Notes under the pieces: model-generated
Told to the model about the DNA's origin: nothing
The model's input: only the letters and a program-made list of their open reading frames with translations
Databases searched by the model: none
Position numbers and translations under genes: made by a program
Assembly: GCF_007995055.1 (NCBI RefSeq)
Contig: NZ_VOQQ01000001.1
Coordinates: forward strand, 372,001 to 436,000
Source of the DNA: Sphingosinicella ginsenosidimutans
GTDB lineage: Bacteria > Pseudomonadota > Alphaproteobacteria > Sphingomonadales > Sphingomonadaceae
Reading direction: 5' to 3'
DNA: 64,000 nucleotides
Shown here: positions 1 to 9,007 of the stretch, one piece after another
How the letters are laid out: every line of letters begins with the position of its first letter
Numbering within the stretch: the stretch's first letter is position 1

Positions 1-292
1 TCGGCTCCCCCCGCTCGATGCCGAGCGCGAGCAGCCGGTCGGTCACGAAAGCGAGCATCTCCCAGCTCTTGCTCGCCTCCCCGGCCGGGATGGTGACGGT
101 TTCGGTGGCGAGGCCCGACAGGCCCTGGGTGAGCCGCGCACCCTGCGCCGCAGCGACATTTTGGTCGGTCACGACGAATGCGCGACCATTGGGCGCGAGC
201 GGCGCGAGATGTTGGGCGGCGCGGCCGATCAGGCCCGCTTCGATGCGGACGTCATAAGCGCGCGGCCCAAGCTCGACCCGCACGATGCTCAT
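1..292 (-). CDS. aroB: 3-dehydroquinate synthase, N-terminal part (cut by window edge)
   Basis: Second step of the shikimate pathway: NAD- and metal-dependent conversion of DAHP to 3-dehydroquinate in the cytoplasm. Only about 97 residues are inside the window. The start reads [20 protein letters not shown], and [10 protein letters not shown] matches the family motif PxGExxKs near the NAD site. The ATG at 292-290 overlaps the aroC stop (ATGA), and GAGGAGGGGG just upstream is a strong ribosome-binding site that lies inside a small palindrome. It is the last visible gene of the aroF-trpE-trpG-aroC-aroB operon. Family assignment is firm; the C-terminal catalytic residues cannot be checked. Confidence 0.9.
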
Positions 293-1221
293 GTCCCCCT
301 CCTCTCCGGGGAGAGGGCAGGATGAGGGGATTGGAGCGCCTGGTCGGCCAGGACCAGCGCCATCATCGCCGCCGCCACCGGCGCGCCGCGGATGCCGACG
401 CAGGGGTCGTGGCGGCCCTTCGTCACGATCTCGGTCTCGTTGCCCTCGCGGTCGATCGTCGGCACCGGCGTCAGGATCGAGCTGGTCGGCTTGAACGCGA
501 TCCGCACCCGCCCCGGGGCCGCCAGCTCGACGCCCTTCACCGCATTGATCGACATCATCGCCGCGAAGGTTTCCGACGGCGGCGGTTCGGCGCCCTCGAC
601 CGCGCATTCGACGACCGCGCCGAGCGAATCGCCCGCCTTTCGCGCCGCATCGAGCCGCGCGGCCCAGCGCTCCGCAGCGGCGGCGTCCGGGCAGAAGAAG
701 GGATTGGCGTCGATCTGGTCGGCATCGAAACCGGCGATCGGATCGCCGCCGATCTCCACCACATAGGCCGCGATCGTCACGCCGGGGATCAGCTTGCGCG
801 CGACCGCCCCGGCCGCGACCCGCGACGCCGTCTCGCGCGCCGAGGACCGGCCGCCGCCGCGCCAGTCGCGAAATCCATATTTGGCGTCATAGACATAGTC
901 GGCATGGCCGGGCCGATAGGCCTGGCTGACCTCCGAATAATCCTTCGATCGCTGGTCGATATTCTCGATCTTCAGGCTGATCGGATCGCCGGTGGTGCGG
1001 CCGGATCGGACTCCCGAAAGGATTCGCACCTCGTCCGGCTCCCGCCGCATCGTCGTGAAGCGCGACTGGCCGGGCCGGCGCCGATCGAGGAAGGGCTGGA
1101 TGTCGCCCTCGGCGAGCGCGATCCCCGCCGGGCAGCCTTCGACAAGCGCGCCGATCGCCGGCCCGTGGCTTTCGCCCCAGGTCGAAAAGCGGAAGCACCG
1201 TCCAAAGCTGTTCCAGCTCAT
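289..1221 (-). CDS. aroC: Chorismate synthase, internally shortened
   Basis: Chorismate synthase converts 5-enolpyruvylshikimate-3-phosphate to chorismate using reduced FMN. The start [20 protein letters not shown] carries signature 1 (GESHG); [32 protein letters not shown] and GRHDPCVG are present. At 310 residues it is short for a family of about 350-390. Compared with Caulobacter and E. coli enzymes from memory, about 9 residues are missing before [11 protein letters not shown]. About 42 are missing between GVE and AFKPTSS, including the near-invariant NHAGG(I/L)GGISxGQ loop that contacts FMN. The usual Glu in PVxEAM is Ala. The C-terminus ([12 protein letters not shown]) comes from a palindromic repeat. 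The frame is open, so this is an in-frame loss, not a frameshift. Activity is doubtful; a full-length copy may exist elsewhere. Confidence 0.85.
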
Positions 1222-1844
1222 CAGGCGGCGTGCATGGCTGGCGCCGGCGCGTCGGGCAAGCCTTGGCGGGCGGGAAAGAGGGCGAGGACGTTTTCGAGGA
1301 TGCGGTCGCCGTCCGCGGTGAGGATCGATTCGGGATGGAACTGCAGCCCGATCTGGAGCGCCGCGAGATCGCTGATCGCCATCGCCATGCCGTCGATCTC
1401 GGCATGGACGGTGAAGCGCGCGGGAATGTCGCGCGTGCACAGCGAATGGTAGCGCCCGACGCGCACCGGCCCCTCCAGCCCGGCGAAGGGCCCGGCGCCG
1501 TCATGGTCGATCAACGTGCCCTTCCCGTGCACCGGCTCGCCGGCCCGATCGACCCGGCCGCCGGCCTCGAACACGATCGCCTGGTGGCCAAGGCAGATGC
1601 CGAGCACCGGCACATTGCCCTTCGCGATCCGGATCAGATCGAGGCAGCAGCCCGCCTGTTCCGGCCGCCCCGGGCCGGGCGAGAGCAGGATCGCGGCGCC
1701 GGCTTCCTTCGCCAGCGCCAGCGCATCGCCCGCCGCGATCGTGTTGCGCAGGACTTTGACCGTGCAGCCAAGCCGCGCCAGCGTCTCCACCAGGTTGAAA
1801 GTGAAGCTGTCGAGATTGTCGATCATCAGGATGGATCGGGTCAT
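1221..1844 (-). CDS. trpG: Anthranilate synthase component II (glutamine amidotransferase)
   Basis: Supplies ammonia from glutamine to TrpE for anthranilate synthesis. The 207-residue protein is a class I glutamine amidotransferase: [11 protein letters not shown] at the N-terminus, LLSPGPG (oxyanion strand), the nucleophile Cys in [10 protein letters not shown], and the His-Glu pair in GLQFHPES. The start ATG at 1844-1842 overlaps the trpE stop (ATGA), and its own TGA shares one base with the aroC ATG (TGATG), so translation is coupled on both sides. The same family serves p-aminobenzoate synthesis (PabA). The trpE neighbour and the Trp-rich leader favour an anthranilate role, although amphibolic use is possible. 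Confidence 0.93.
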
Positions 1845-3340
1845 GCGGCGACTCCGCTGAGCACGGAAAGGAGGGCCGCGGCCTTCTGGCGCGTCTCCGC
1901 CGCTTCGCGCGCGGGGACGGAATCGTGGACGATGCCGGCGCCGGCGCGGACATAGGCCGTCCCGCCGGTCACGACCGCCGATCGGATCACGATGGCGCTG
2001 TCGAGCAGGCCGTCGCCGTCGATCCAGCCGATCGCGCCGCCATAGGCCCCGCGCCGGGTCCGCTCGTGGCGGCGAAGCAATTCCGTCGCCCGGATCTTCG
2101 GGGCGCCCGAAAGCGTGCCTGGATTGAGGCCGGCATGGAGCGCGTCGATCGCATCGAGATCGGGGCGGAGCGTCCCGACGACCGAGGAGACGAGGTGCAT
2201 CACATGCTGGTAGCGCTCGACCGTCATCAGCGCGCGGACCCGGCGGGTTCCCGCGACGCTGATCCGCGCCACATCGTTGCGGGCGAGATCGACGAGCATC
2301 ATATGCTCGGCCAGCTCCTTGCCGTCGAGGCGCATGTCGGCCTCGAACCGCCCGTCCTCGTCGGCGCAGCGGCCCCGCTTTCGGGTGCCGGCGATCGGCT
2401 TGATCTCGACCTGCCTCGCCCCCTCCTCGCGAAAGACGCGCACCGAGGTTTCGGGCGACGCGCCGATCAGGACGAAATCGCCGCCGTCGACATGGTAACG
2501 ATAGGGGCTCGGCTCGCGCGCCCGCAGCGCCGCATAGGCGGCAAGCGGATCGGCGCAGCGGGCGCTGAAGGTGCGCGACGGCACGATCTGGTAGACATCC
2601 CCGGCGGCGACATGGCCGCGCATCGTCTCGACCAGCGCGCAATAGGCGGCATCGTCGAGATCGACCGAGATCGGCGCCGCCCCCGGGGGGATGGGGGCCG
2701 GCGGCGCGGCGTCGGCGGCCGCGCGCGCGATGATCGAGGACAAACGCTCCTGGGCGGCGAAGGCGGCCTTTTCGTCCTCCCCGAACGCGGCGCAGACGAT
2801 GCGTGGCGCCGCGCCCGGATCGAAGACCACCAGGCTTTCGGCGAGCCAGGCGACATAATCGGGAAAGCCGGTCGGATCCTCGCCGCTCGCCGGCAGCCCT
2901 TCAAGGTTGGCGGCATAATCGAAGGCCAGGACGAAGGGCACGAAGAGCGCGCACGGCTCCTGCGGCGAAAGATTGTCGAAGCCGATCAGCGCGCGCACCG
3001 CATCGAGCGGGGTCGGCGCGCGCAATCGTTCCTCGGCATCGTCGCCGGCGATCGGCGGAAAGGCGAACCGCACCCCCTCCGCATCCCTGTCTGCCACGCG
3101 ATCGGCGAGCCGTTCGGCAAGCGCCGAGAGCGCCGCCGCGCCATTGGCCGACAGCGCGCTCGCGACGACCTCGTTGCCCCGGCATTCGAGCCGAAGCGCA
3201 GCGCGCTCCATCAGCAAGGCGGGGCCGTCCGCTTTCTCGATCAGCAGGGTGTCGGCCCGTCCGGCGCACAGCGCGCGATAGAGCGCCAGCGGGTCGACAG
3301 CCCGGCCGAGCGCGCGGGTGAAGGCGCGCACCTGGCTCAT
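1841..3340 (-). CDS. trpE: Anthranilate synthase component I
   Basis: Converts chorismate plus ammonia to anthranilate. The 499-residue protein resembles E. coli TrpE along its whole length. It has an N-terminal regulatory region, then the chorismate-binding core with [62 protein letters not shown] and [11 protein letters not shown]. At the Trp-feedback pocket, E. coli LLES (Ser40) is here LIEK (Lys at about residue 36), so feedback inhibition may be altered; this is inference. The ATG overlaps the aroF stop (ATGA). PabB is the alternative name, but overall similarity and the Trp-coded leader make TrpE more likely. Confidence 0.92.
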
Positions 3341-4353
3341 GCCGCGATCCTGCCGACGGCGGCGAGCACCGCCGACACGCGTGGCATCAGCGCCGCGAAC
3401 TGGTCCGGATAGAGCGACTGGGCGCCGTCCGACAGCGCGACCGACGGATTTTCGTGGACCTCGATCAGGAGGCCGTCCGCGCCGCAGGCCGCCGCCGCCA
3501 GCGCCATCGGCCCGACGAGATCGCGGATGCCGGTGCCGTGCGATGGATCGACGACGACCGGCAGGTGCGTGCGCTGCTTCATGTAGGGCACGGCGTTGAG
3601 ATCGAGCGTGTTGCGGGTCGCGGTCTCGAAGGTGCGGATGCCGCGCTCGCACAGGATCACCTGATCGTTGCCGGCGGCGAGGATATATTCCGCCGCGAGC
3701 AGCAGCTCCTCGATCTTCGCGGAGAGACCGCGCTTCAGCAGGACCGGCTTGTCGGTCCGCCCGACGGCGCGCAGCAGTGGGAAATTCTGCATGTTGCGCG
3801 CGCCGATCTGCAACGCGTCGGCATGGGCCGCGACGATGTCGACATCGGCGGTGTCCATCACCTCGGTGACGACCGGCATGGAGAGCTCGTCCGCCACCTC
3901 GCGCAGCAGCCGCAGCCCCTCTGGCCCGTGGCCGCTGAAGCCATAGGGGCTGGTGCGCGGCTTGTAGGCCCCGGCGCGAAGCACCTTCGCCCCCGCGGCC
4001 TGGACGGCGCTGGCGCTGTTGAACAGCTGCTCGCGGGTCTCGACCGCGCAGGGGCCGGCGATCACCGGCACCGCGCGGCCGCCGAAGGCGACGCCGCCGA
4101 TCGAGACGATCGTGTCGTGCGGGTGCAGGTCGCGCGCGACAAGCTTGTAGGGGGCAAGGATCGGCTTCACCGATTCGACGTGCGGGTCGCTGTCGAGCGC
4201 GAGCTCGGCGAGCACCCGTTCGTCGCCGAGCGCGCCGAGCACCACGCGCTCGGCCCCCGGCATGTGGAGTGGTTTCAATCCGGCGCCGGCGATCCGGTCG
4301 AGCAGCCGCTGGGCGGCGTCGGCGGGGGCTTCGGGCTTGAGGACGATGATCAT
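3337..4353 (-). CDS. aroF: 3-deoxy-7-phosphoheptulonate synthase (DAHP synthase)
   Basis: Entry enzyme of the shikimate pathway, condensing phosphoenolpyruvate with erythrose-4-phosphate. The 338-residue protein looks like the type I-beta class. A small ferredoxin-like N-terminal domain (about residues 1-70, [10 protein letters not shown]) is followed by the TIM barrel with [58 protein letters not shown] and VVDPSHGTG. It is the first structural gene after the Trp-coded leader and attenuator. CAGGAAG upstream of the ATG serves as ribosome-binding site. A position directly behind a Trp leader suggests tryptophan supply controls carbon entry at this locus. Confidence 0.93.
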
Positions 4354-4382
4354 GTTGGCAAACTTCCTGGCGACTGGGCAAT

Positions 4383-4407
4383 AAAAAAACCCGCCGGTCG
4401 GGCGGGT
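4383..4407 (-). terminator. Trp attenuator terminator before aroF
   Basis: On the minus strand a 7-bp stem (ACCCGCC / GGCGGGT) with a 5-nt loop is followed by a run of seven T, a classic intrinsic terminator about 30 nt before the aroF ATG. It sits downstream of the Trp-rich leader ORF rather than after a gene, which marks it as an attenuator. Confidence 0.88.
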
Positions 4408-4452
4408 CTGATCGGTCGAGACCTTAAAGGTCAGGATGCGCTTCGATCAGCC
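4405..4452 (-). promoter_or_regulatory. Antiterminator pairing of the trp leader
   Basis: The segment covering the last codon and stop of the leader ORF (GGCTGATCG, 4452-4444) can pair with CGATCAGACC (4414-4405) with one bulged A. The second segment includes the first bases of the terminator 5' arm, so the two structures exclude each other. A ribosome stalled on the Trp codons (4482-4456) leaves 4452-4444 free and favours readthrough. A ribosome at the stop codon covers it and favours termination. A small hairpin GACCTT-A-AAGGTC (4420-4432) lies between the two arms. Confidence 0.75.
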
Positions 4453-4548
4453 GCGCCATCGCGAGGACGTCCACCGCCACCAGCCGAACGCAAATGCGCC
4501 GTGGCCGGAAACCGGCGCGGCGAATGCGGAGGCGTGGTCGCGAGTCAT
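4447..4548 (-). CDS. trpL: Trp operon leader peptide
   Basis: A 33-codon ORF that begins MTRDHASAFAAP and ends FGWWRWTSSRWRG, with four tryptophan codons in the last eleven residues, then TGA. Trp is rare in ordinary proteins, so this cluster just before a mutually exclusive terminator/antiterminator pair identifies an attenuation leader peptide. The ATG lies only a few bases after the predicted transcription start, so the ORF is probably leaderless or nearly so, a layout I recall for Sinorhizobium trpL. No Shine-Dalgarno sequence is visible, which fits. Confidence 0.85.
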   Translation of the reverse strand: MTRDHASAFAAPVSGHGAFAFGWWRWTSSRWRG

Positions 4549-4550
4549 CG

Positions 4551-4585
4551 CCGCATGCTTACAGACACCGCGCCTCGCGCGTCAA
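4551..4585 (-). promoter_or_regulatory. Predicted sigma-70 promoter of the aroF-trpEG-aroCB operon
   Basis: On the minus strand TTGACG (4585-4580) is a near-consensus -35 box. After a 16-nt spacer comes TGTAAG (4563-4558), a plausible -10 box. Transcription would start near 4551, two or three bases before the leader ATG at 4548. No other good -35 box is seen between the leader and the divergent M13 gene at 4786. Confidence 0.6.
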
Positions 4586-4785
4586 TCGTCTCCGGCATGG
4601 GCATCAAGGCGCGACGTTCGTCGCACGACCTAACCCCCTGTTTCCCCGCACGTCCCCTCCTCTCGGACAGGGCACATGTCGTTCGTCTAAAAAAACTTGC
4701 ATCGCCGCCCGGCTTGCGAGCTAGTGCGCGCGGGGACTTATCTTAGGACGGCCGGCGACCGCCTGGCCGTTGGGAGGCCATTTAC

Positions 4786-6846
4786 ATGCAAAAATCCCGT
4801 ATCGCCGCGCTGGCGGCGATCCTGCTTGCCGGAACGGCGCCGCTTTTTGCCCAGGCGCAGCCGCCCCACAGCGCCGCAACCGCCGCATCGGGAAGCGGCC
4901 ATGCCGCGTTCGGCGATTGGGGCGTCGATCTTTCGGCGCGCGATCTTTCGATCCAGCCCGGCGACGATTTCTGGCGCTACGCCAACAACAGCTGGTTCCG
5001 GAACAATCCGATCCCGCCCGACGAGACCTCCTGGGGCGGCTTCACCTCGCTTCGCAACGATGTCGAGCGGCAGGTGAAGGCGATCGTCGACACCGCCGCG
5101 CAGGCGAGCGATCCGGTGAGCCAGCGCGTCGCGGCCATGTATGCGAGCTGGATGGACGAGGCGGGGATCGAGGCGCGCGGCACCGCGCCGCTGCGTCCCT
5201 ATCTCGACCGGATCAACGCCGCGCAGAGCCGGGACGATCTCGTCCGGCTGTTCGCGACTCCCGGCTTCCCCTCGCCGCTCGGCGTCGGCATCACGCCCAA
5301 TCCCGGCGATCCGACCCACTATGCCGCCGGCGCAAGCCAGGGCGGGCTCGGCATGCCGAACCGGGATTACTACCTCAATCCGGGCGCGCAGTTCGACGCC
5401 TATCGGGCCGCCTATCGCACCTATGTCGCGACCATCTTCCGCCTCGCCGGCTATAGCGAGCCGGAGGCGCGCGCGGACCGGGTGATCGCGCTCGAACATG
5501 CGATCGCCGAGGCGCACTGGACGCCCGAGCAGAGCCGCGACGTCGCGCGCTCGATCAATCCGATGACGCCGGCGCAGCTCGCGGCGCTCGCGCCCGAGTT
5601 CAACTGGCCGCTCTGGCTCCAGGGCGAGGGCCTGTCGGGCGTCAACACGATCATCGTCCGCCAGACGACCGCCATCCAGGCGGAGGGTCGGCTGTTCGCC
5701 TCGACCCCGGTCCAGACCTGGAAGGACTGGCTCGCCTTCCAGTTCGTCAGCAACAATGCGGAATTCCTGCCGCGCGCCTTCGATCAGGCCAATTTCCAGT
5801 TCTTCTCGCACACGCTGCGCGGCACCGAGCAGCAGCGCGAGCGCTGGAAGCGCGGGCTCGCCGTGGTCAACCGGACGCTGGGCGAGGATGTCGGCCAGCT
5901 CTACGTGGCGCGTTACTTCCCCGAGGAGTCGCAGCGCCAGATGACCGAGATGGTCGGCAATCTGCGCGCCTCGCTCGGCGAGCGGCTGCGCGCCAACCAG
6001 TGGATGGACGACGCCACCCGCCAGGCGGCGATCGCAAAGCTCGACGCCTTCGATCCGCGCGTCGGCTTCCCGGTCCACTGGATCGACTATTCGTCGATGC
6101 AGGTCGATCCGCACGATCTGCTCGGCAACATGATGCGCGCCCAGCAATTCCAGCATAACCTGCAATTGTCGCGCCTGCCCAATCCGGTCGATCGCACCTT
6201 GTGGGGCATGACGCCGCAGACGGTGAACGCCTATTACAGCCCGCTCACCAACCAGATCACCTTCCCGGCGGCGATCCTGCAGCCGCCCTTCTTCGATCCG
6301 AATGCCGATCCGGCGGTCAATTATGGCGCGATCGGCGCCGTGATCGGCCACGAAATGGGCCACGGCTTCGACGATCAGGGCAGCCGCTTCGACGGATCGG
6401 GCCGGCTGCGCAACTGGTGGTCCGAAGAGGCCAATTCGCGCTTCCAGGCGCTCGTCACCCGCCTCGGCGCGCAATATGACACCTACGAACCCGTGCCGGG
6501 CCTGCATATCCGCGGCCGCCAGACGATGGGCGAGAATATCGGCGATCTCGGCGGCATCGAGGTCGCCTATGGGGCCTATCGCCGCTATGTCGCGCAGCAT
6601 GGCGAGCCGCCGGTGCTGAACGGCCTGACCGGCGACCAGCGCTTCTTCCTCGCCTTCGCCCAGGTCTGGCGGTCGCAGCAGCGGCCCGACGCGCTTCGCC
6701 AGCAGGTGCTGACCGATCCGCACAGCCCGGCCGAATTCCGCGTGAACGGCGTCGTGCGAAACGTCGATGCCTGGTATCGCGCCTTCAACATCCAGCCGGG
6801 CAACAGGCTTTACCTGCCGCCCGACCAGCGCGTTCATATCTGGTGA
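4786..6846 (+). CDS. Secreted M13-family zinc metallopeptidase
   Basis: Neprilysin/PepO-type endopeptidase that cleaves short peptides outside the cytoplasm. The 686-residue protein starts with a clear signal peptide (MQKSRIAALAAILLAG...AQAQP). The N-terminal M13 domain has the repeated family phrase SARDLSIQPGDDFWRYANN. The catalytic domain carries NAYYSP, the zinc site HEMGH (residues 522-526), the third ligand Glu583 in GENIGDLGG, and the C-terminal GDQRFFLAFAQ. A tandem paralogue follows at 6908 with a similar layout, so the pair arose by gene duplication. M13 enzymes often begin with a lipobox Cys; none is present here, so a soluble periplasmic protein is likely. Confidence 0.93.
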   Translation: MQKSRIAALAAILLAGTAPLFAQAQPPHSAATAASGSGHAAFGDWGVDLSARDLSIQPGDDFWRYANNSWFRNNPIPPDETSWGGFTSLRNDVERQVKAIVDTAAQASDPVSQRVAAMYASWMDEAGIEARGTAPLRPYLDRINAAQSRDDLVRLFATPGFPSPLGVGITPNPGDPTHYAAGASQGGLGMPNRDYYLNPGAQFDAYRAAYRTYVATIFRLAGYSEPEARADRVIALEHAIAEAHWTPEQSRDVARSINPMTPAQLAALAPEFNWPLWLQGEGLSGVNTIIVRQTTAIQAEGRLFASTPVQTWKDWLAFQFVSNNAEFLPRAFDQANFQFFSHTLRGTEQQRERWKRGLAVVNRTLGEDVGQLYVARYFPEESQRQMTEMVGNLRASLGERLRANQWMDDATRQAAIAKLDAFDPRVGFPVHWIDYSSMQVDPHDLLGNMMRAQQFQHNLQLSRLPNPVDRTLWGMTPQTVNAYYSPLTNQITFPAAILQPPFFDPNADPAVNYGAIGAVIGHEMGHGFDDQGSRFDGSGRLRNWWSEEANSRFQALVTRLGAQYDTYEPVPGLHIRGRQTMGENIGDLGGIEVAYGAYRRYVAQHGEPPVLNGLTGDQRFFLAFAQVWRSQQRPDALRQQVLTDPHSPAEFRVNGVVRNVDAWYRAFNIQPGNRLYLPPDQRVHIW

Positions 6847-6853
6847 GCCTTAT

Positions 6854-6886
6854 CGCCCCTCCCTGCATCAGGGAGGGGCGCTTTCT
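6854..6886 (+). terminator. Hairpin between the two M13 genes
   Basis: A 12-bp stem (6854-6865 with 6869-6880) closed by a 3-nt loop follows the first M13 stop by a few bases, then CTTTCT. The T-rich tail is weak, so it may act as a partial terminator or an mRNA-stabilising hairpin between the paralogues. Confidence 0.55.
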
Positions 6887-6907
6887 ATGTCGAAGGATCC
6901 AATCGCA

Positions 6908-9007
6908 ATGAAGCATGTCCTGTTCCTCGCTGGCGCGGCGACGATCGCCCTCGCGCCGCTTTCCGCCCAGGCCGCCACCGGCGCCGCAACCGCCGCGACC
7001 GCCACCGGCGCCGCAGCCGCCGCGACCGCCACCGGCACGGCCGCCGCCACCGCGGCCACCGCCGGCCGCCCCGAATATGGCGATTTCGGGATCGACCTTT
7101 CCGCCCGCGATCTTTCGGTGCGGCCGGGCGACGATTTCTGGAGCTATGCCAATGCCGGCTTCGTCCGCGCCCATCCGATCCCGGCCGACCGGGTCAGCTA
7201 TGGCGTCAGCGATGTCCTGCAAGACCAGATCGAGCAGCAGCTCAAGGACATCGTCGAGCATCCGGGCGACGATGCCGCCGCCCGCCAGGTCGCCGATTTC
7301 TATGCAAGCTGGATGGACGAGGCGGGGGTCGAGCGGCGCGGGGCCGCGGTGCTCCAGCCCTATCTCGACCGGATCAACGCGGTCCACGATCGCGCCGGCC
7401 TCATCGCCCTGTTCGCGACTCCGGGCTTCGCCTCGCCGGTCGATATCGGCATCATCCCCGATCCGGCGGACACGACCCGCTACGTCGTCACCGCGAGCCA
7501 AAGCGGGCTCGGCCTTCCCGGCCACGATTATTATCTGAACCAGGGCGCGGATTATGATCGCTATCGCGCCGCCTATCGCGCCTATCTGATCCAGATCCAG
7601 ACGCTTGCCGGCATTCCGGACGCCGCGGCCAAGGCCGACGCGGTGATCGCGCTCGAACATCGCATGGCCGAGGTCCAGTGGGCGCCGGAGCGCAGCCGCG
7701 ACATCCAGCAGACCTACAATCCGATGGATCGCGCCCAGCTCGCCACGCTCGCCCCGCAATTCGATTGGCCCAACATGCTCGCCGCCGCCGGCCTTGGCAG
7801 CGCGCAGACCGTCGTGGTGGGCGAGACCAGCGCGATCCACGATACCGGCGCGCTGCTCGAAAGCGTGCCGCTGGAGACGTGGAAAGCCTATCTCACCGTC
7901 CACTTCATCGACAATTTCGCCCAATATCTGCCGCGCGCCTTCGATCAGGCGAATTTCGAGTTTCGCAGCCACACGCTGCGCGGCGTGGAGCAGCAGCGCG
8001 ACCGCTGGAAGCGCGGGCTTTCGGTGCTCAACCGGTCGCTTGGCGAGGCGGTGGGCCGCATCTATGTCGAGCGCCATTTCCCGCCCGAAAGCCGCCGCCA
8101 GATCACCGAGCTGGTCGGCAACCTGCGCGCCGCGCTGAACGAGCGGCTTCGCGCGAACCAGTGGATGGACGACACGACCCGGGAACAGGCGATCGCCAAG
8201 CTCGACGCCTTCGATCCGCGGCTCGGCAGCCCAGCCCAGTTCGTCGATTATTCGCCGATCCGCGTCGATCGCGCCGACCTGCTCGGCAATGCGGTGCGCG
8301 CCGGCCAGTTCGCCTGGGAACGCCAGGTGCGCCGGTTCGGCGGGCCGGTCGATCGCAGCCTGTGGGAAATGACCCCGCAGACGATCAACGCCTATTACGA
8401 TCCGCTGATGAACCAGATCACCTTCCCGGCCGCGATCCTGCAGCCGCCTTATTTCGATCCCAATGCCGATCCGGCGGTGAATTACGGTGCGATCGGCGCG
8501 GTGATCGGCCACGAGATCGGCCACGGCTTCGACGATCAGGGCAGCCATTTCGACGCGCAGGGCCGCATCCGCGACTGGTGGACGCCGCAATCCTCGCAGC
8601 GCTTCGCGGAGCGCACCCAGGCGCTCGGCGCGCAATATAACCAGTTCGAGCCGCTGCCCGGCCTGCACGTCAACGGCCAGCTGACCATGGGCGAGAATAT
8701 CGGCGATCTCGGCGGCATCGAAATGGCCTGGTCGGCCTATCGCCGCTACGTCGCCCAGCATGGCGAGTTGCCGGTGATCGACGGCCTGACCGGCGATCAG
8801 CGCTTCTTCCTCGCCTACGCCCAATCCTGGCGCGATTACTGGCGCGAGGGGCTGCTTCGCGAAGTGGTGCTGACCAATCCGCACGCGCCGTCCATGTACC
8901 GGGTCAATGGCGTCGTCCGGAATGTCGACGAATGGTATCGCGCCTTCAACATCCAGCCCGGCGACAGGCTCTATCTGCCGCCGGAGCAGCGCGTCCACAT
9001 CTGGTGA
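6908..9007 (+). CDS. Secreted M13-family zinc metallopeptidase, paralogue
   Basis: Second copy of the neprilysin/PepO-type peptidase, 699 residues. The chosen ATG begins MKHVLFLAGAATIALAPLSA, a good signal peptide; an upstream in-frame ATG at 6887 (MSKDPIA) is possible. After cleavage comes an Ala/Thr/Gly-rich linker encoded by a 27-nt tandem repeat. Catalytic features: HEIGH at residues 535-539, third zinc ligand Glu596 in GENIGDLGG, and GDQRFFLAYAQSWRDYW. It matches the upstream gene almost residue for residue in the catalytic half and differs most at the N-terminus. GAAGGA at 6891 serves as ribosome-binding site. Confidence 0.93.
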   Translation: MKHVLFLAGAATIALAPLSAQAATGAATAATATGAAAAATATGTAAATAATAGRPEYGDFGIDLSARDLSVRPGDDFWSYANAGFVRAHPIPADRVSYGVSDVLQDQIEQQLKDIVEHPGDDAAARQVADFYASWMDEAGVERRGAAVLQPYLDRINAVHDRAGLIALFATPGFASPVDIGIIPDPADTTRYVVTASQSGLGLPGHDYYLNQGADYDRYRAAYRAYLIQIQTLAGIPDAAAKADAVIALEHRMAEVQWAPERSRDIQQTYNPMDRAQLATLAPQFDWPNMLAAAGLGSAQTVVVGETSAIHDTGALLESVPLETWKAYLTVHFIDNFAQYLPRAFDQANFEFRSHTLRGVEQQRDRWKRGLSVLNRSLGEAVGRIYVERHFPPESRRQITELVGNLRAALNERLRANQWMDDTTREQAIAKLDAFDPRLGSPAQFVDYSPIRVDRADLLGNAVRAGQFAWERQVRRFGGPVDRSLWEMTPQTINAYYDPLMNQITFPAAILQPPYFDPNADPAVNYGAIGAVIGHEIGHGFDDQGSHFDAQGRIRDWWTPQSSQRFAERTQALGAQYNQFEPLPGLHVNGQLTMGENIGDLGGIEMAWSAYRRYVAQHGELPVIDGLTGDQRFFLAYAQSWRDYWREGLLREVVLTNPHAPSMYRVNGVVRNVDEWYRAFNIQPGDRLYLPPEQRVHIW
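6974..7054 (+). repeat. 27-nt tandem repeat coding an Ala/Thr/Gly linker
   Basis: Two 27-nt copies (6974-7000 and 7001-7027) differ at one base, and a third, degenerate copy runs to about 7054. They encode ATGAATAAT-like nonapeptides between the signal peptide and the M13 domain of the second peptidase. The first M13 gene lacks the repeat. Copy number may vary by replication slippage. Confidence 0.8.

Follow-up and report, generated by a model that had tools for sequence, protein, structure and literature searches.

The minus-strand element at positions 4585-4383 of the 64-kb window (the whole stretch of DNA that was analysed) is very probably a ribosome-mediated, near-leaderless tryptophan attenuator placed before aroF-trpE-trpG. 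Judged by its sequence, the attenuator is ordinary in mechanism; the set of genes behind it is unusual, and a twin leader lies before trpD elsewhere in the genome. Positions given below are those of the window, and other locations in the same genome carry the prefix G000:C1.

Anatomy of the trpL1 leader

The element comprises a promoter-like pair, then a 33-codon ORF (trpL1), then a strong terminator, and is followed by aroF at 4353. A -35 element (TTGACG, 4580-4585, minus strand) can be read from the sequence 16 nt from a -10 element (TGTAAG, 4558-4563, minus strand), which is itself 9 nt from the leader ATG. This promoter position would place the transcript start at ~4552-4549. The leader ORF (4447-4548, minus strand) encodes MTRDHASAFAAPVSGHGAFAFGWWRWTSSRWRG, in which Trp residues are arranged as WWRW...W, and ends with a TGA stop codon at 4449-4447. 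Its four Trp codons occupy 4482-4480, 4479-4477, 4473-4471, and 4458-4456. Codons 23, 24, and 26 fall within TGGTGGCGGTGG (4471-4482, minus strand), the conserved predicted stall site, which is nearly invariant in nucleotide sequence in 20 leaders. By eye, no Shine-Dalgarno site was seen before the ATG. The coordinates that an earlier note had given for this region were correct.

A strict sigma-70 scan of 4300-4800 returned no promoter. A TTGAC box is present 33-40 nt upstream of an in-frame leader ATG in 12 of 20 aroF leaders, where ~0.5 would be expected, and in 21 of 22 trpD leaders (0.9 expected). In 13 of the 20 aroF leaders (shuffles expect 1.3), 5-11 nt separate the end of the best TTG-(16-18)-hexamer element from the in-frame ATG closest to WW, and this spacing holds in 14 of 20 (1.0 expected) when measured to the farthest in-frame ATG. 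No promoter-like element was found for aroF leader L011, and the top-scoring candidates of L018 and L019 sit elsewhere. Given the conserved promoter-to-ATG spacing, seen both in the TTGAC box and in the -10 distance, the comparison supports a trpL1 transcript that begins at, or a few bases before, the leader ATG and thereby backs the near-leaderless start proposed earlier.

The intrinsic terminator that the earlier note had placed after trpL1 was confirmed at 4383-4409 (minus strand); it consists of regions 3 and 4, with a 9-pair stem (4409-4387), a 5-nt loop, and seven T residues at 4389-4383. Upstream, region 2 (4444-4457, minus strand), the 5′ arm of the predicted antiterminator, shares bases with the fourth Trp codon and with the stop codon of the leader, and region 3 (4401-4414, minus strand) provides the 3′ arm. 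Since 4409-4401 of region 3 is also the 5′ arm of the terminator, the two structures are mutually exclusive. The earlier reading of the antiterminator, 4452-4444 with 4414-4405, is correct as far as it goes, but the most favorable duplex extends to 13 pairs between 4457-4444 and 4414-4401 and leaves C4453 and A4407 as single-base bulges. A small hairpin (GACCT TTA AGGTC, 4420-4432, minus strand) lies between the leader stop and the terminator, within the antiterminator loop.

The predicted folds were compared with shuffled sequences. The fold of 4551-4375 has a z-score of -2.31, with 1 of 200 shuffles as stable or better. Complementarity between regions 2 and 3 exceeds that of dinucleotide shuffles (own p 0.002; combined p 5e-6), and the hairpin between stop and terminator has a mean z of -1.6 (10 of 20 at p<0.05; combined p 1.6e-8), both combined values being too small, since the 20 aroF leaders are related. 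Taken leader by leader, the region 2/region 3 energy test gives p<0.05 in 5 of 20 cases and is not significant in 15; the hairpin of trpL1 itself has z -0.59 and p 0.26.

In the alignment of the 20 leaders, the antiterminator core has standard pairs in 95% of cells, as against 33-54% when the arms are slid, and the terminator core is paired in 160 of 160 cells (100%), as against 25-62%. Covariation was sought in three ways, in the two core pairings and by swapping region 3 between leaders, and was not found in these cores, which hardly vary. Pairs changed on both sides number 0 in the antiterminator core and 1 in the terminator core across the 20 leaders. In the alignment-free swap, an exchanged region 3 was as good in 281 of 5000 trials for aroF leaders and in 1345 of 5000 for trpD leaders. 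Both pairings thus keep their place across the leaders; compensatory change, which the earlier note would have taken as decisive, is not demonstrated by cores so nearly constant.

Searches of the window set this leader apart. In a census of ORFs of 10-60 codons (longest per stop, both strands, 64 kb), trpL1 was the sole one among 727 short ORFs with at least four Trp codons including WW. A covariance model built on 19 leaders from other genomes of the genus, with the window left out, found trpL1 at 51.4 bits (E 9.4e-11); the next match in the 64 kb reached 13 bits (E 0.066). The Rfam family RF00513 (Trp_leader) matched 4488-4381 at 24.5 bits, short of its gathering score of 41, with E 0.0055 in a 271-base search, and at the gathering threshold it was not reported anywhere in the window. 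For 20 loci (19 same-genus aroF leaders and that of Ferrimonas), RF00513 was listed in four, at 26.2-29.8 bits.

Conservation in relatives and proposed mechanism

Twenty-six genomes of the genus, our own included, were sampled, and AroF orthologues (identity of at least 71%) were present in 20. In all 20, the sequence directly 5′ of aroF contains a leader ORF with WWR and a terminator of the form CCCGCC-GGCGGG, so the Trp codons of the leader are indeed conserved, as the earlier note required of its reading; WWRW is present in 19. Twelve nucleotides, TGGTGGCGSTGG, are nearly invariant across the aroF leaders, and the remaining peptide varies. In 6 of the 26 genomes (G001, G009, G016, G018, G019, and G213), searches detected neither AroF nor TrpE of this type, yet four of the six keep the trpD leader.

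Beyond the genus, the same arrangement of leader and aroF occurs in G080 and G112, from the next genera of the family, and AroF of this type (at least 69% identity) was found in 5 of 249 sampled family genomes, own included. Of 80 distant named AroF loci, 78 have at least 150 nt of upstream sequence, and five of these 78 show a short ORF with WW. Only Ferrimonas balearica (L157) among the five adds trpE-trpG directly after aroF and a terminator; its leader, MTHRSAQHIAWWWRSQT, contains WWW and stands before aroF-trpE-trpG-trpD-trpCF. Locus L160 (Kangiellaceae) has the gene order and no short ORF with two Trp codons, and at L156, where gene order and terminator are present, the leader region is lost at the contig end.

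Matches to the R1 leader model occurred in 113 of 249 family genomes; some of the best were read, and most weak ones were left uncounted. By eye, the matches in G003:C350, G006:C28, and G041 were tRNA-linked terminators and those in G001:C14, G046, and G239 were ORF ends, and the matches in G019, at G001:C1:23549, and at G000:C1:2151642 were likewise rejected as leaders. A separate locus, L105 (G224:C1:353345-353244, minus strand), has a third Trp leader (MNHPSAPADAMTTGTWWRGRMHAERWRD) and terminator before a gene for a membrane protein that resembles a TSUP-type permease.

These features point with high confidence to transcription attenuation of the classical, ribosome-mediated kind, with charged tRNA-Trp as the sensed signal. 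Here, the transcript would begin at the leader ATG or only a few bases away, and a ribosome would load on the near-leaderless transcript and trail the polymerase. When Trp is low, stalling at codons 23, 24, and 26 would leave region 2 (4457-4444) free to pair with region 3 (4414-4401), and the polymerase would then read into aroF-trpE-trpG-aroC-aroB. When Trp is sufficient, the ribosome would reach the stop codon, region 3 would pair with region 4, and termination would follow at 4389-4383. The geometry fits such a switch: given that the stop codon (4449-4447) lies within region 2 and that region 3 contains the terminator 5′ arm, a ribosome at the stop would favor the terminator, and one on Trp codons 23-26 would favor the antiterminator. 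A ribosome stalled farther on, at the fourth Trp codon (4458-4456), would cover region 2, whose edge this codon occupies. Anatomy, conservation, and gene content can be observed directly; from the sequence we infer where transcription starts, that the leader is translated, that the switch operates, and that read-through reaches every downstream gene.

Leader peptides in this group are long, with ~24 to 52 residues depending on the ATG taken, and trans roles of a leaderless trpL are described in Sinorhizobium meliloti (PMC7298713). The terminator might thus be mainly a constitutive brake, or it might delimit a trans-acting small RNA or peptide like rnTrpL and peTrpL in that organism. We regard this as very improbable, given that the conserved parts are chiefly the WWR codons, region 2, and the terminator, and the peptide is otherwise variable; a trans role would, in any case, not exclude attenuation. 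The reading of trpL1 as a Trp attenuator, first proposed in the earlier note, thus stands on its leader, terminator, pairings, and conservation, at the level of sequence.

Genes behind the leader

The first gene, aroF (3337-4353, minus strand), encodes a type I-beta DAHP synthase of 338 amino acids, and matches to Pfam PF00793 and PF18152 and, over cut-off, NCBIfam NF006421 bear out its earlier identification as the first controlled gene. It overlaps by ATGA with trpE (1841-3340, minus strand; anthranilate synthase component I, NF010079 over cut-off), which in turn overlaps by ATGA with trpG (1221-1844, minus strand; anthranilate synthase glutamine amidotransferase, PF00117 and TIGR00566 over cut-off). 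A chorismate synthase gene without two conserved segments, aroC-alpha (289-1221, minus strand), overlaps trpG by TGATG. The 5′ end of aroB (1-292, minus strand; 3-dehydroquinate synthase, TIGR01357 and NF006604 over cut-off) reaches the window edge, the full gene being G000:C1:372292-371153, and an LL-diaminopimelate-type aminotransferase gene comes after it, outside the window. All six genes are consecutive with start-stop overlaps. The operon does start with aroF, as had been claimed, but it is larger than was then seen and runs on into aroC, aroB, and the aminotransferase gene. Given the presence of aroC and aroB, pathway steps 1, 2, and 7 lie behind the switch, and the Trp signal would sit over DAHP synthase, DHQ synthase, and one chorismate synthase chain.

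Within 150-3500, no terminator-like site was found, and a sigma-70 scan gave no promoter-like site, a weak negative, as the same scan misses the aroF promoter. The order AroF-TrpE-TrpG was found in all 17 relatives read (of 19), and aroC stands behind trpG in our own genome only (1 of 18). TrpE of this type exceeds its model cut-off in 3 of 79 sampled family genomes, with G112 just below. Divergent from the operon are two adjacent plus-strand ORFs, 4786-6846, which matches M13 metallopeptidase, and 6767-9007, which is similar by eye.

It had also been proposed that tryptophan gates entry into the shikimate pathway. The gene aroF is indeed behind the switch, but entry as a whole is not, given that a type II DAHP synthase gene lies elsewhere in the genome (G000:C1:38114-39358). 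This gene was found in 22 of the 26 genus genomes; among the 20 genomes with AroF, a match was absent in G008, G022, and G023, of which G022 and G023 are incomplete. In our own genome, G004, and G012, the search upstream of it gave no short ORF rich in aromatic codons, and the one found in G020 has a single Trp. Given this separate enzyme and the lack of an aromatic-rich leader ORF before it, Trp cannot shut all shikimate entry here.

The chorismate synthase AroC is known as a homotetramer; it is not known to have a human counterpart or to occur in a two-subunit (heteromeric) form. No full-length AroC was found in our own genome, which is 99.8% complete. The product of aroC-alpha leaves model positions 242-286 of TIGR00033 unmatched; against the NCBIfam aroC model (cut-off 212.2), its main stretch scores 251.6 bits, and 311.4 bits with in-frame neighbours. 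A second, AroC-like ORF, beta (L250; G000:C1:1723032-1723664, plus strand; 210 amino acids), scores 74.4 bits, below that cut-off. Alpha keeps ESHG, RRPG, PGHADY, SARET, KPTSS, and GRHDPC; beta holds the two segments missing from alpha, keeping WGAP, NAD, NHAGG-GGI, and the C-terminal tail, and is without most other invariant positions. Neither chain contains all invariant AroC segments. In a structure model of beta by itself, the NHAGG loop is disordered. Seven relatives with the same losses were found for each type, with pairwise identities of 81-97% (alpha) and 67-95% (beta). The last 15 residues of alpha are encoded at 289-336 (minus strand); C-terminal ends vary among the alpha relatives and resemble read-in of intergenic sequence.

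An invariant column was defined as at least 98% identical in 120 full-length AroC sequences, and was counted as kept when its top residue was present in at least seven of eight rows. Of 187 such columns, alpha keeps 136 and beta 75, and neither keeps 7, compared with 30.5 expected if losses were independent; losses come in blocks, so the columns are not independent. Among 397 family genomes, the beta-type match occurs only in our own (E 2.3e-132), the next best (E 2.5e-34) being part of a normal AroC. Beta lies behind a fabI-like gene; at this place, a whole aroC is retained in two of the four relatives examined.

Given these complementary losses, each shared by seven relatives, the sequences suggest that chorismate synthase here has two subunits, one of them placed under the Trp attenuator. 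It is unlikely that aroC-alpha and the 210-residue ORF are instead two decaying copies with nothing functional split between them. Each does lack segments that full-length chorismate synthases keep without variation, as decay would have it, but no full-length copy was found in the genome, the losses are common to the seven relatives of each type, and so few invariant columns are lost from both, a comparison tempered by the block-wise losses. If the two-subunit enzyme is confirmed, it would be a natural case in which an essential enzyme became an obligate pair by complementary loss.

A second Trp leader, operon history, and known systems

A second Trp leader with terminator (L088, L239; G000:C1:621125-621003, minus strand) precedes a second operon of trpD, fused trpC-trpF, trpB, and trpA, the last identified from its translation only. 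A model built on aroF leaders alone finds this leader at 40.2 bits (E 3.2e-8). With the aroF-leader model, Trp leaders before trpD were found in 22 of the 26 genus genomes, with trpD read downstream in 21 and the contig ending in the other (G021); such a match was missing in G017, G019, G022, and G213, by which absence is not proven. The trpD leaders of the relatives G014 and G015 part after WRWWWDIPS, the one in G015 (L060) having lost the terminal RW. Given a second leader of the same type before trpD, the two Trp operons probably respond to one and the same signal.

Both leaders were found in 18 genomes. The second leader lies between trpG and trpD in G004 and G013, the two leaders are divergent and 265 nt apart in G007, and in the remaining 15, kilobases of sequence separate the two or they lie on separate contigs. 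In G112, from another genus, aroF-trpE-trpG-trpD-trpCF-trpB is contiguous with no leader between trpG and trpD. Fused TrpCF occurs in 3 of 79 sampled family genomes. In an AroF tree of 60 rows, which covers 39 of 80 named loci and was obtained by a quick search with SH-aLRT support only, the genus, G080, G112, three gammaproteobacterial aroF-trpE-trpG loci, and three other loci form one set with support of 100.

From these arrangements, we infer that a whole-pathway operon was transferred, later gained a second attenuator, and then split. The series from G112 through G004 and G013 to our own genome offers a testable order in which an operon could be split without loss of control. It is possible, if the less favored view, that the trpD and aroF leaders are independent in origin and that the split was unrelated to a gained attenuator. 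Outside WWR the two leader peptides share little, and shared function may explain their likeness; against this, the aroF-leader model reaches the trpD leader of the same genome, and the contiguous operon of G112 is without an inner leader, whereas G004 and G013 have one between trpG and trpD. Taken together with the chorismate synthase pair, gain of an attenuator and then splitting would form part of a joint history that we consider about evenly balanced: an obligate alpha-beta chorismate synthase replaced the one-chain enzyme, alpha moved into the aroF-trpE-trpG operon, the attenuator came to control aroF, aroB, and the sole gene for one half of the last shikimate enzyme, and a further attenuator arose between trpG and trpD before the operon broke in two. 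If this is true, Trp would tune both the Trp branch and the exit from the shikimate pathway.

A literature search, mostly of non-subscription coverage, returned no report of a sphingomonad trp attenuator, a second Trp attenuator, or an attenuated aroF so arranged. Attenuation in proteobacteria was reportedly the subject of a study by Vitreschak and others in 2004. In Escherichia coli trpL, the leader ORF contains Trp codons, and antiterminator and terminator have one common arm; both traits recur in trpL1. Unlike E. coli trpL (RF00513), trpL1 has aroF as the first gene and no Shine-Dalgarno site was seen, and its score for this family stays below the gathering value (24.5 versus 41 bits). From chorismate synthase AroC as it is known, the present case differs in that the invariant residues are divided between two proteins.

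The trpL of Sinorhizobium meliloti, as described in PMC7298713, begins its transcript at the leader ATG and encodes a 14-residue leader, and among the three trp operons there, attenuation acts on trpE(G) alone. Like trpL/rnTrpL before trpE(G), trpL1 is alphaproteobacterial, and its promoter spacing predicts a transcript that likewise begins at the leader ATG or close to it; unlike it, trpL1 has a 33-residue leader, and both Trp operons here have one. For Corynebacterium glutamicum, PMC4046766 gives a trpE Trp leader with three consecutive Trp residues and lists separately an aroF leader with Phe-Tyr-Phe. A leader-peptide attenuator before a DAHP synthase gene is thus common to both, with Phe-Tyr-Phe in the C. 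glutamicum aroF leader and Trp here. Finally, the Acholeplasma uORFC-13-1 motif, for which PMC8632094 proposes Phe codons, likewise combines a uORF and a terminator before aroF; the codons in trpL1 are those for Trp.
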